Source: Planctomycetaceae bacterium (GTDB lineage: Bacteria > Planctomycetota > Planctomycetia > Planctomycetales > Planctomycetaceae). From it: a stretch of 64,000 bases of DNA. The stretch covers positions 62,001 through 126,000 of the forward strand of contig JAKFUG010000023.1 in NCBI GenBank assembly GCA_021732785.1, read 5' to 3'. The notes below the pieces were generated by a model. The model did not search any database, was not told the origin of the DNA, and saw only the letters and a list, made by a program, of their open reading frames with translations. The position numbers and the translations under genes are program-made. Of the stretch, positions 6,435 through 62,234 are shown piece by piece (within the stretch, counting starts at the first letter, position 1; the number at the start of each line of letters is the position of its first letter).

Positions 6435-6756
6435 ACTGGATTGGAGAATAACGTCGGTGTGCCACTGGCTCTGCCAGTGTCTTCAATTGAGTGAAGCACT
6501 CGCACTGGCGGAGCCAGTGGCACACGATCAATATGAAATCCCGGCGGATCGAGTTGTTATTCGATTATCAATGGGTAGAGCCAACAAACATCACAGCCGC
6601 GTGGCGATCGTCGCCCCGCGCAACGGTGCCTCGATGATTGCAGTGTTTCTTTCGCCCGGAAACACTGACGGGGCTGGGATCATGACTGGGGCGTAATCAA
6701 GATGATGCTGCCTGCTGGTGCCCCGGAACGGGACCAGGACAGCCGGAGACTGACGA
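6435..6756. other. Spacer between fabG and the ACP gene
   Basis: A 322-base gap within the fab cluster. It contains the palindromic element at 6457-6525 and otherwise no gene; a 79-codon frame at 6457 runs through the palindrome and is probably not translated. An ACP promoter may lie in the second half. Confidence 0.5.
6457..6525. repeat. Dispersed palindromic repeat, CCACTGGCTC family (copy 1)
   Basis: Two 23-base arms (6457-6479 and 6503-6525) are inverted copies with one mismatch around the core CCACTGGCTCYGCCAGTG. Near-identical elements are at 11563-11640 and 53346-53432, and a diverged one is at 27423-27490. Each arm is itself partly palindromic (CTGGC/GCCAG), a layout like a BIME made of two REP units. 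Confidence 0.85.
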
Positions 6757-11523: not shown

Positions 11524-11562
11524 CGCGGTCCAACGCACGTAGATCGTCACGTCACGATTGGC

Positions 11563-11640
11563 GTGTGCCACTGGCTCTGCCAGTGCATGAAACGGTGTGC
11601 CTTCCATCGAAGAAAGACACTGGCGGAGCCAGTGGCACAC
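11563..11640. repeat. Dispersed palindromic repeat, CCACTGGCTC family (copy 2)
   Basis: Arms 11563-11585 and 11618-11640 repeat the same 23-base sequences as the copy at 6457, with a 32-base unrelated loop. It sits between the convergent FHA and NarL-type genes. Confidence 0.85.
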
Positions 11641-11706
11641 GACCCGAATTCCTGGACTTGACGGAGCACGAGCCCGTTTCGTACGGCTCAATTCACGGCA
11701 TGTTCC

Positions 11707-18779: not shown

Positions 18780-18859
18780 GTAGGGTTTGCCGAGTCCGCG
18801 AGGCGAACCGCATCACTGGGACAATTCCTGGTTCGCCTCGCGGACTCGGCAAACCCTAC
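18780..18859. repeat. Perfect 30-bp inverted repeat, AGGGTTTGCCGAGTCC family
   Basis: Arms 18780-18809 and 18830-18859 are exact inverted copies separated by 20 bases. The right arm supplies the TAG stop codon (18856-18858) of the minus-strand epimerase gene. It lies between a divergent and a convergent gene end and has no T tract, so it looks like a mobile palindrome rather than a simple terminator. Confidence 0.88.
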
Positions 18860-24615: not shown

Positions 24616-24685
24616 TGAGCGGCACGGCGCTAGCCGCCGGTTCCGCCAAATCGCCAAGAACCGGCGGCTAGCGCCGTGCCGCTCA
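24616..24685. repeat. Perfect 28-bp inverted repeat, GGCGCTAGCCGCC family
   Basis: Arms 24616-24643 and 24658-24685 are exact complements with a 14-base loop; the core is GCGGCACGGCGCTAGCCGCC. It lies just after the hypothetical gene and may terminate its transcript, although no T tract follows. Confidence 0.88.
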
Positions 24686-25867: not shown

Positions 25868-25929
25868 AGCCCGAAGCGCGAGCGCCGGGTCTCTTCTTGA
25901 AATGCAACCCGGCGCTCGCGCTTCGGGCT
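25868..25929. repeat. Perfect 23-bp inverted repeat, AGCCCGAAGCGCGAGCG family
   Basis: Arms 25868-25890 and 25907-25929 are exact complements with a 16-base loop. It lies immediately downstream of the DUF1552 gene. Confidence 0.88.
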
Positions 25930-53316: not shown

Positions 53317-53345
53317 TTGCAATAATCTTCCTGACGATTTGTTTT

Positions 53346-53432
53346 GTGTGCCACTGGCTCTGCCAGTGCTCTTGATATTGATCGTGATCGTTCCATAGCA
53401 ACCAGAAGACACTGGCAGAGCCAGTGGCACAC
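53346..53432. repeat. Dispersed palindromic repeat, CCACTGGCTC family (copy 3)
   Basis: Arms 53346-53368 and 53410-53432 are perfect inverted copies of one another and nearly identical to the copies at 6457 and 11563. It fills the gap between pdxA and the phosphatase genes. Confidence 0.88.
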
Positions 53433-53436
53433 ACAT

Positions 53437-57924: not shown

Positions 57925-59004
57925 CTATCGCGCCGCCTTCACCGTCCGAAATCCGCAGTGAAACGTCCCCGATTGCATATCCCCCTTCATCCGGGCGGCG
58001 ACACGGTAACCGATGCAGTAGTTATCGCTGCACATGAAGGACCCGCCGCGCTGCACGCGCTTCGGAATCGTGGGCTCTAACGGATCAATGCTGACCGGCG
58101 GCCCCTGCGGGTTGCGGATGCGGCTCTGGCGATAATAGTCCGGCTGATACCAGTCAGAACACCACTCCCACACGTTGCCCGAAAGGTCGTACAACCCGTA
58201 ATCATTCGCCGGGAACGACTTCACCGGTGACGTTTGCTGGAAGCCATCTTTCACATCGTTCTGCAGCGGGAACTCGCCCTGCCAGATATTGTGCATCCAC
58301 TTGCCGGACGGGTTCCGTTCGTTCCCCCACGGATATTCCTGACCTTCATGCCCACTCCGCGCGGCGTACTCCCACTCCGCTTCAGTCGGCAAACGGTGGC
58401 CCTTCCATTCGCAGTACGCACGGGCATCATCCCATGCGATGTGGACCGCGGGGTGATCCATCCGGCCGTCGAGATTCGAAGCGGGACCTTCGGGCTGCTT
58501 CCAATTCGCCCCCCCGACGTACTTCCAGACCTGATACGGCCACAGAGGATTGTCTTTGCGAAGCGTCTTCGGATCGAAACTCGAATTGAAGCAGATCGAT
58601 CCCGCGATCAGGTTTTCCTCGGGGATGCTCGCGACATCGGGAACCTGCCCGGCGAGGTCTTCGCGCGTGACCTTCTTCTCGGCGACGGTGATGTAGCCGG
58701 TGGCGTCCACAAATTCTTTGAACTGCGCGTTGGTGACTTCGGTTTCGTCCATCCAGAAGCCGTCGAGAGTGACCCGATGAGCGGGGGATTCATCGGGGAA
58801 TTGCGGATTGTTGGTCCCCATGGTGAACGTGCCGCCGGGAATCCAGCGCATGCCGGTCGGTGTGGAACCGGGTTCTTTCACGATCACCGGGGCGTTCGGA
58901 TCCTGGAGATCCGCGGCTTGCGGCACAGGTGTCGATGCGGACTTCGCACATCCGACGATGGCTGCCAGGACGATCAGTCGCCATATCGAATGTTGATGGG
59001 TCAT
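57925..59004 (-). CDS. Formylglycine-generating-enzyme-like lipoprotein
   Basis: The protein is 359 aa from the ATG at 59004. A lipoprotein signal ends at LAAIVGC (Cys19). The FGE-sulfatase domain fills about residues 50-355: RWIPGGTFTMGTNNPQFPDE, HRVTLDGFWMDETEVTNAQF, HIAWDDARAYCEWKGHRLPTEAEWEYAAR, GLYDLSGNVWEWC. Both cysteines of true FGEs are present, Cys325 and Cys330 in RGGSFMCSDNYC, and GFR near the end is also conserved. FGE turns a sulfatase Cys into formylglycine. Many planctomycete relatives lack these Cys residues, so this one may be catalytically competent, on the periplasmic side. Confidence 0.88.
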   Translation of the reverse strand: MTHQHSIWRLIVLAAIVGCAKSASTPVPQAADLQDPNAPVIVKEPGSTPTGMRWIPGGTFTMGTNNPQFPDESPAHRVTLDGFWMDETEVTNAQFKEFVDATGYITVAEKKVTREDLAGQVPDVASIPEENLIAGSICFNSSFDPKTLRKDNPLWPYQVWKYVGGANWKQPEGPASNLDGRMDHPAVHIAWDDARAYCEWKGHRLPTEAEWEYAARSGHEGQEYPWGNERNPSGKWMHNIWQGEFPLQNDVKDGFQQTSPVKSFPANDYGLYDLSGNVWEWCSDWYQPDYYRQSRIRNPQGPPVSIDPLEPTIPKRVQRGGSFMCSDNYCIGYRVAARMKGDMQSGTFHCGFRTVKAAR

Positions 59005-59029: not shown

Positions 59030-59061
59030 GCACCCCGGCTGCTCCGGAGCAACCGGGGTGC
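59030..59061. repeat. REP-like palindrome, GCACCCCGGCTGCT family (copy 4, distant)
   Basis: GCACCCCGGCTGCTCC pairs with GGAGCAACCGGGGTGC, with one C/A mismatch. It lies 26 bases upstream of the FGE-like gene start and is about 37 kb from the transposase gene. Confidence 0.85.
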
Positions 59062-59073
59062 ATCATCAACTAT

Positions 59074-59345
59074 GAGCAAAAAAAACCAAATTCCAAGGAC
59101 CAAGTTCCAAACAACATTCAAATTCCAAATTCCAAACTATGATAGGAGTTACGCAGTTGCCCGTTTTTCGGGGGTTTGGGCTGGCTTGCAAACGCCCCAC
59201 TCTACCCATGCCTGGCTATATTCCGGTCAAAAACGGGTCTGATGGGGCAACTGCGTAACTCCTATATGAGAACAATGTCACCGTCTTCGTTTGGAATTTG
59301 GAACTTGTCATTTCCTTGGAGCTTGGAATTTGAAAATTGGAATTT
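59074..59345. repeat. Palindromic AATTCCAAATTCC element interrupted by the MITE
   Basis: The left part (AAATTCCAAGGACCAAGTTC, CAAATTCCAAATTCC) and the right part (TTTGGAATTTGGAACTTG, CTTGGAATTTGAAAATTGG) are inverted counterparts with mismatches, at either side of the insertion at 59143-59264. With the MITE and one TATGA removed, the host palindrome becomes continuous. Confidence 0.65.
59143..59264. mobile_element. 122-bp MITE with 20-bp terminal inverted repeats and TATGA target duplication
   Basis: The left end TAGGAGTTACGCAGTTGCCC and the right end (inverted) are identical over 20 bases. TATGA stands on both sides (59138-59142 and 59265-59269), the expected 5-base target duplication. The interior has no ORF, so the element is non-autonomous and needs a transposase encoded elsewhere. 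It disrupts an AATTCCAAATTCC palindrome. Confidence 0.9.
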
Positions 59346-59357
59346 CCGTTTCGGCCC

Positions 59358-60353
59358 CTACTCCGCAAACGCGGCGTCAAACGCCCGCGCCGACGGAGCA
59401 AAGTCGACGTTCTTAACGTACTGGCACGATTCGCGCGCGCCGTGCTCACGGTCCATCCCCGAATCTTCCCATTCGACCGACAATGGGCCCTGATACTTCG
59501 CAGCATTGAGCGCGCGGATGATTTCCTCGAACTGCACGCCGCCGCGACCGACGCTGCGGAAGTCCCAACCGCGGCGGGCATCGCCGAACGACAAGTGGCT
59601 GGCAAGGATGCCGCTCTTGCCGTTGAGCGTGACCTTCGCGTCCTTCATGTGGACGTGATAAATGCGGTCCGGGAACGCGCGGATGAACTCGACGGGATCA
59701 ACGCCTTGCCAAATCAAATGGCTCGGGTCGAAGTTGAAACCGAATTCTTCGCGACGATCCAGCGCCTGCAGCGCCCGTTCGGCCGTGTAGATATCGAAGG
59801 CGATTTCCGTCGGATGGACTTCCAGCGCGAACTTGACGCCGCATTCCTGGAAGACATCGAGAATCGGATTCCAGCGGTCCGCGAGGAGTTGGAACCCGGC
59901 GTCGTACATCGATTTCGGCGTCGGCGGGAAATCGTAAATCAGATGCCAGACACTGCTGCCGGTGAAGCCGTTGACGATGCCGATACCGAGCTTCTTCGCG
60001 GCGCGGGCGGTGTTCTTCATCTCTTCGGCGGCGCGCTGGTTCACGCCTTCCGGCTTGCCGTCGCCCCACACATATGGTGGGAGAATCGTCTTGTGGCGGG
60101 CATCGATATTGTCGAGCACCGCTTGCCCGACGAGATGGTTCGAAATCGCGAAGACCTGCAGGTCGTACTTTTCTAGAAGCTCACGCTTGCGGGCACAGTA
60201 GCCGTCGTCGGACAGGGCCTTGTCGACTTCAAAGTGGTCGCCCCAGCAGGCCAGTTCGAGACCGTCGTAGCCGAAGTCCTTGGCCTTCTTGCAGAGTTCT
60301 TCCAGCTTGAGATCGGCCCATTGACCGGTAAACAGCGTGACGGGACGGCCCAT
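59358..60353 (-). CDS. Sugar phosphate isomerase/epimerase family (TIM barrel)
   Basis: The protein is 331 aa from the ATG at 60353; the upstream open frame passes through a palindrome and was not used. It has the AP-endonuclease-2-like barrel features: [56 protein letters not shown] and [11 protein letters not shown], providing metal-binding Glu, Asp, His and Glu. No signal peptide is seen, so it is cytoplasmic. The family interconverts ketoses; the substrate is not clear. The next gene upstream is a ThuA protein, typical company for sugar catabolism in planctomycetes. Confidence 0.88.
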
Positions 60354-60449
60354 CGATCGGATTCCTTGTTGTGTGTTCTGAAGAGGGGAGACACCCAGCG
60401 CGCGGCGAGCTTTGACGGTAAAAATCCGCCGGGGGAAAGTCAAACGTCC

Positions 60450-60576
60450 CTCGTTCCCATGCTCCGCGTGGGAACGGACGGTCGCGACGCTCTGCGTCGC
60501 AACGAGCGTTTCAATCGGCATCCCTACGACGCGGAGCGTCGCAGCCCTGCGTTCCCACGCGGAGCATGGGAACGAG
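60450..60576. repeat. Palindromic repeat, CGTTCCCATGCTCCGCGTGG family
   Basis: Arms 60450-60476 and 60550-60576 are perfect 27-base inverted copies; the loop has a second pair, GACGCTCTGCGTCGC with GCGACGCTCCGCG-like sequence. It lies between the isomerase and ThuA genes. Confidence 0.85.
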
Positions 60577-60586
60577 TTGGAAGCCG

Positions 60587-61483
60587 CTACGGTGCCGACT
60601 TTCGTTGGCTCAGCGCGTCCGGCTTCGGGAAATCTTCGGGAACCGGTTGGGTCACTGCGCCCGTCGCAGCCCATTCCACACCGCGCTGGAACGTCGTGAT
60701 GAAACCGACGCATTCCTGCGAGTAATCGCCGTGGCCGAGGGCGGTGTGAAAGACGCGGCCTTTGCCGAATTTCACCGCCATCAACATCGGTTCGTGACGG
60801 CCGGTCCCGCCGTGTTTCGGATCGGCAAACGCGGTGGCCAACACCTGCATGTTCGCCGCCGGGCCACGGAGTTTATCGTACAGTTCATCTTTCACATGCA
60901 GCCATTCCCGCGGCAAACCTTTCGTGATCGGGTGCTCGGCGTCGCGGGTGATCACCGTGAAATCGTGCTGGGCACCGTGGCTGCCGCCGGGGCCTTTCGA
61001 TTCGTCGCGAACGATGCTGCCGTCGTCTTTTGCGTAGACATACGGGCCGCTCTTTTCATTGCGGCCGCCCCAGCCGCCGAGGCCGATCATTTCGTTGTAT
61101 TCGGGCCATTCAGGGAAGGAATTGTCGGCGGCGTGGACGACGACAAAGCCGCCGCCGTTTTTCACGAACTCGGCGAACTTCTTTTGCGTCTCCGCGGGCC
61201 AGGCCGCGCCGTTGTAGTTCGAGATGACGACGGCGTACTTCGAGAAGTCCGGGGCGAAATTTTCATCGGTTCCCTTCGCCGCGGTGGTGGCGACATCGAC
61301 CGTGAAGAGCCCCGTTTCTTCGAGGTACTTCTTCATCATCTGCGTGGTTTTGGGCCAGATGCCGTGATTGTTCTGGCCGTCAACAATCAACGCGGCCTTC
61401 TTTTCCGCCGCCGCGGCAGTCAGTGCCGTCGTGGCGATGAAGCCCAGAAACAGAAACGTCCAACCGAGCGAGGCGCGTCGCAT
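60587..61483 (-). CDS. ThuA-like domain protein, exported
   Basis: The protein is 298 aa. It has a signal peptide ([21 protein letters not shown]), then the ThuA/glutamine-amidotransferase-like fold: [58 protein letters not shown], and the late segment [16 protein letters not shown]. ThuA domains are linked to trehalose and other sugar utilisation and are abundant in planctomycetes. The catalytic role is not known. Confidence 0.87.
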
Positions 61484-62234
61484 GCTGTGTGCTCCCGAAA
61501 GTGTCGATCCGAATGGAAATGATACTATACCGCGGAGTCACGGGCTGCCCAAGGATGGCTACGTCGGGTATTCATTGATTGGTGCATCCTGTGTTTGCCG
61601 GGGAACACCCGTGAACAATTCCGGACTCTGGAGCCCCAACGGGGGTGATATTCGATAGCCCAGCCCGAGGTCTTCCGAAGGGCTGGGTTCGCGATCGCCC
61701 GGCACACCAGCCCCACCGGGGCGCGACTCTTTCCGAACAACACCGTCGCGCCCCGGTGGGGCTGGGCCATGCCCTCCGATCCGTTGACCCAGGGCTGCGC
61801 GAAGACGCTGCGCCCTGGGCTATCGAATTGCGCCCTCATTCGGGGCTGAAGACCAACTTTTCTGTGACCACCAGTCTCCAGATGCACCCTTCACTGATTG
61901 GACATGTTCTTAAAAACCCGGATCTCGATCGCACTCAAGGACGATCATCGGCAAAGCGGCAAGCGTGTTGGGGGCTGATTTGGCACAGCGGTTGCGTTGA
62001 TCGTGTGGCGGTTTCGCCACGCCTTGGCAAAGTCGGCATCCTGTGAAGTGCGAAGGTCTGCCGAGGCGAACAGTCGCGCCGGTTGTGCGGACCCAATTCA
62101 TGGCGATTCGGCAACATGCGCGGCTTCCATCGGGCATCGCCGCCGCTACGGGGTAGATTTCGTCACCGGAGAATTGTCACTTTCACCTCTGGCGATGTGT
62201 CAAATTTGCAATCGCCCGACGGTACGGTTTGACT
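61484..62234. other. Intergenic region with the second multi-hairpin repeat
   Basis: About 750 bases between divergent genes. The repeat at 61618-61876 fills the middle; the rest (61877-62234) has several small open frames on both strands, none recognisable. No terminator or promoter is obvious. Confidence 0.5.
61618..61876. repeat. Multi-hairpin dispersed repeat (copy B)
   Basis: Same-orientation copy of 50139-50413. The ends (TTCCGGACTC and CACCAGTC) and the four stems are conserved (for example AGCCCCACCGGGGC, GCGCCCCGGTGGGGCT, CCCAGGGCTGCGC/GCGCCCTGGGC). Where one arm changes, the other often changes too. Confidence 0.8.

Follow-up and report, generated by a model that had tools for sequence, protein, structure and literature searches.

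The intergenic DNA between an FGE-sulfatase-domain gene (about 57925–59004, minus strand) and a xylose-isomerase-like TIM-barrel gene (59358–60713, minus strand, start uncertain) contains a short sequence with inverted ends that lies inside a second, larger palindrome. This locus raises the question of whether the inner sequence is a mobile element and, if so, what moved it and in what order the two layers arrived. Positions below refer to the window, the whole 64,000-nucleotide stretch of DNA that was analysed.

A 122-bp element in seven genomic copies

The window sequence reads TATGA (59138–59142), TAGGAGTTACGCAGTTGCCC...GGGCAACTGCGTAACTCCTA (59143–59264, 122 bp) and again TATGA (59265–59269). 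The left terminal inverted repeat occupies 59143–59162 (plus strand) and the right one 59245–59264 (minus strand). The two arms pair over 21 bases only through a chance match of the flanking bases, and the true terminal repeat measures 20 bp. The first-pass annotation, which described a 122-bp element with exact 20-bp ends, a TATGA duplication and no coding capacity, is thus confirmed on the window sequence.

We searched the genome (6.69 Mb in 96 contigs) for further copies and found seven full copies on seven contigs, the window copy included, all exactly 122 bp long and 94–100% identical. In the alignment of all seven, pairs of copies differ at 0–7 positions and 11 columns are variable overall; the 20-bp repeat is perfect in the window copy and has one mismatch position in some of the others. 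Target duplications of differing sequence flank six of the seven copies and are 5 bp long at five of them (TATGA, TGCTA, TGTGT, ACGAA and AAACA) and 6 bp long at one (TTCCAA), while no target duplication was found at the C2 copy. The expectation that the same ends would recur in the genome with duplications of their own is therefore borne out, five of the other six copies having one. At several of the other sites open frames of 80–213 codons, some of which may be genes, span the insertion point.

The constant length of 122 bp in seven of seven copies and the lack of a transposase gene fit the usual size of MITEs (less than about 500 bp). In being short and non-coding, with terminal inverted repeats, duplications, several copies and, in the same genome, a full-size IS of similar ends, the element resembles bacterial IS-derived MITEs and shows no difference in kind from them. 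Judged by its sequence, it is a genuine MITE that cannot move itself, and it represents a new family of an ordinary, well-known kind. A limited literature search found neither this family nor its link to the transposase model NF049921 discussed below. The MITE was absent from the 169 other genomes of the family that were searched, and its 20-bp end had no match in viral contigs. A weak match in another genome (L041 in G054) lies opposite a long transporter-like ORF and was set aside as likely due to chance.

The perfect ends had also been read as a sign that the window copy moved recently. Because identical copies occur in two other pairs (C45/C43 and C16/C19) whereas the window copy is four substitutions away from its nearest relatives, perfect ends are no proof of such recent movement, and the window copy does not rank as the youngest. 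The identical pairs instead point to recent movement of those copies.

A resident IS with matching ends

A shorter form of the end, CTGCGTAACTCCTA, was located at or near six contig ends (C62, C75, C67, C79, C9 and C89). Here it belongs to a resident IS whose ends begin TAGGAGTTACGCAGT and adjoin coding fragments, and the contigs break off within sequence that they have in common, which is typical of assemblies at multicopy elements. Since C67 and C9 have AATCA in common at their IS junctions (as read by eye), they probably flank a single copy of this IS. The MITE thus has its ends in common with an IS of the same genome that is broken at contig ends, the match covering the outermost 15–16 bp (the first 15–16 bp of the left terminal repeat) as against the full 20-bp repeat of the MITE.

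The N-terminal fragment of the resident IS matched the NCBIfam model NF049921 (IS701_2 transposase) with E=4.6e-11, whereas the C-terminal fragment alone matched it weakly (E=0.12). Nearly the same sequence as in the resident C-terminal fragment is present, however, in a degraded relative from another genome (L040), the C-terminal half of which matched with E=6.4e-50. The resident fragments scored 42.7 and 11.7 bits against a cut-off of 250 bits that applies to the whole protein, of which only the terminal fragments are assembled; the middle of the IS, with the body of the transposase, was not found in the assembly. The suggestion that a matching active transposase resides in the genome therefore holds for an IS with matching ends, but the match extends over 15–16 rather than 20 bp and the transposase body is absent from the assembly.

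The interior of the MITE showed no significant similarity to the ends of the resident IS in a shuffle test; of some 64 comparisons, the few that gave low values (0.002–0.004) involved other genomes and were given no weight. The 10-base sequence TGGGTAGAGT (59199–59208, minus strand) also occurs immediately before the start codon in the left end of the resident IS (C75) and is a possible though weak relic of the parent IS.

The best explanation of these patterns, and in our judgement a highly probable one, is that the resident NF049921-type (IS701_2) IS supplies, in trans, the transposase that moves the MITE. The MITE, short and non-coding, would then have kept end sequences that a transposase from elsewhere can recognise, in this case the NF049921-type DDE transposase of the IS with TAGGAGTTACGCAGT ends. 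By binding both ends of the MITE, this transposase would mobilise it and join it to a target cut in a staggered manner, and filling in of the gaps would leave the 5-bp (sometimes 6-bp) duplication. In the window, the target of the MITE would have been the central loop of a dispersed palindrome that was already present between the sulfatase-domain and sugar-isomerase-like genes. We also infer that the MITE originated by internal deletion of an IS of the NF049921 group.

Movement by this IS group is argued for by the duplications of its relatives, which have the same length (5–6 bp) as those of the MITE. Against the resident IS as the mover are the restriction of the common ends to 15–16 bp, the interiors without significant similarity, the transposase body missing from the assembly and the C2 copy without a duplication. 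Such a short match might instead reflect another IS from this broad group, either unassembled or lost, whose ends would match those of the MITE beyond the first 16 bp; an IS from another genome (L076), which has GTTACGCAGTTGCCCGGTT inside its ends and is closer to the MITE there although its outermost bases differ, lends this idea some substance. Nevertheless, no IS with these ends other than the resident one was found in the genome, and the outer 15 bp or so are precisely the part of the ends that is conserved among the IS relatives, so we regard a different mover as unlikely.

It is far less probable still that the sequence is a repeated structural RNA or regulatory hairpin and not a mobile element. 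Its predicted RNA fold is strong (z −5.8), mainly because of the inverted repeat, and its position is intergenic, yet the only Rfam match was a sub-threshold one to sucC, which lies beside the element and not on it. A structural RNA would also leave the sharp ends common to an IS and the absence of the element from the same site in a genome of the same genus unaccounted for. We rejected this possibility on the strength of the differing duplications at six copies; any role of the MITE as an RNA or hairpin would be at most a secondary one taken on after insertion. The resident IS thus very probably remains the mover, which ties this miniature element to a named transposase family.

Relatives of the transposase in other genomes

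Proteins scoring above the curated NF049921 cut-off (250 bits) were present in 25 of 398 related genomes, and we measured the ends of 20 related elements from other genomes (among loci L048–L077). These elements are mostly 1.06–1.10 kb long (about 1.07 kb) and have TAGGAGTTACGCA ends or variants of them. Their duplications are 5 bp in ten cases and 6 bp in four, with none clear in the remaining six. The degraded full-length relative mentioned above (L040/L073) carries TAGGAGTGACGCAGT at its ends and is flanked by a 6-bp duplication.

The published description of the IS701 family gives a length of 1400–1550 bp, duplications of exactly 4 bp and ends of the form ---YACT-Y--YR (De Palmenaer et al. 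2008, PMC2266710). Although the resident transposase fragments and their relatives match a model that is named IS701_2, the relatives studied here differ in their length of about 1.07 kb, their 5–6 bp duplications and their TAGGAGTTACGCA ends, these figures being those of the relatives of the presumed mover and not of the resident IS. Because length and duplication size both differ, the NF049921 elements bear the IS701 name yet lack two of its published features. For this family, the end sequence and the duplication length can accordingly be stated in a form open to testing, and both depart from the published IS701 definition.

Short elements bounded by TAGGAGTTACGC were found in 17 of the 398 genomes, this one included, when lengths of 95–155 bp were searched; the reversed pattern returned none. 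In the 16 other genomes of the class (L079–L094), nine of the 16 elements have clear 5-bp duplications, and one (L081) lies too near a contig end for its duplication to be judged. The interiors of these elements, compared by eye in a listing, look unrelated to that of the present MITE, which suggests that MITEs with such ends arose several times.

The host palindrome and other inverted repeats

When the MITE and one TATGA are excised from the window sequence, the AATTCCAA...TTGGAATT palindrome is rejoined, in agreement with the first-pass annotation. The left and right arms of this palindrome lie at approximately 59086–59137 and 59284–59346 and belong to a separate dispersed repeat of about 160 bp that is built on heptamers (inverted CAAATTC repeats). 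Its 17-base core had 206 matches at up to two mismatches in this genome, a count in which one palindrome can hold several cores, versus 0 for a reversed control. At up to one mismatch there were 63 matches here versus 0–3 in 168 other genomes, and 0 in two genomes of the same genus. Forty palindrome regions were fetched (L115–L154), and alignment of the 34 that remained after filtering by length gave the consensus GAAgTTCCAAaTTCCAAA...TTTGGAacTTGGAAtTTC. Long hairpins are predicted for three palindrome-related sequences (z −5 to −7.5). Duplications at the ends of the palindromes were looked for and none were found. Nine palindrome copies (L115, L116, L117, L118, L120, L123, L126, L128 and L133) have similar flanks on one or both sides and may sit inside a larger repeat.

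Because the MITE sits inside the palindrome, the palindrome must be the older of the two. This order of nesting, already proposed from the window alone, agrees with a genome of the same genus (G067) in which the flanking genes and a terminator-like hairpin (59030–59061 in the window) are kept, whereas a short unrelated spacer takes the place of the MITE and of the entire AATTCC palindrome. An empty site in a relative, as had been anticipated, is thus present insofar as the MITE is missing between the same genes, but it is not a precise one, the palindrome being missing as well. At the position corresponding to the C16 copy, G067 apparently has the same pair of genes and lacks both MITE and palindrome in the gap that separates them; in another genome (G025) the downstream neighbour differs.

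Two of the seven MITE copies (C8 and C16) and two of the four located IS copies (C75 and C79) lie inside palindrome copies, as judged by eye from their flanks. Taking 206 palindromes of 165 bp as an upper figure, these repeats would make up about 0.5% of the genome. The probability that at least four of 11 insertions would fall in palindromes by chance would then be near 2e-7, or near 1e-3 if only intergenic DNA, taken as 12% of the genome, is considered, both values being rough estimates made after the pattern had been seen. The distribution hints that the MITE and the IS target the host palindrome, although tolerance of insertions there would look alike. IS elements that insert into REP palindromes have been described (Tobes and Pareja 2006, PMC1525189), and the present case resembles them in that dispersed extragenic palindromes serve as transposon landing sites; it differs in that the repeat here is heptamer-based and about 160 bp long, that only some insertions are inside it and that their number is small. 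What is less ordinary about this system is the palindrome repeat, together with its apparent use as a target; they suggest that dispersed palindromes act as transposon landing sites in these bacteria. More speculatively, and with rather less than even confidence, the NF049921 elements of about 1.07 kb might form a lineage distinct from classical IS701 (with 5–6 bp duplications and TAGGAGTTACGCA-type ends) that has been a repeated source of MITEs and whose transposase here prefers a lineage-specific palindrome of about 160 bp that is itself mobile.

A perfect inverted repeat alone is weak evidence of transposition, because such repeats are common in the window and several are longer than that of the MITE (30, 28, 27, 24 and 23 bp); Markov-simulated sequence contained no perfect inverted repeat of even 14 bp. 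What sets the window element apart is its copy number and its duplications, not the inverted repeat itself. The first-pass annotation ranked it as the best-supported transposition footprint in the window; other inverted repeats in the window could also be related to mobile elements. Perfect inverted repeats with arms of 21–30 bp, above the simulated expectation, lie at 18780–18859, 24616–24685, 25868–25929, 60450–60576 and 61707–61765. Another hairpin, whose arms (GTGTGCCACTGGCTCTGCCAGTG) are near-constant and whose loops vary, occurs three times in the window, at 6457–6525, 11562–11641 and 53345–53433.
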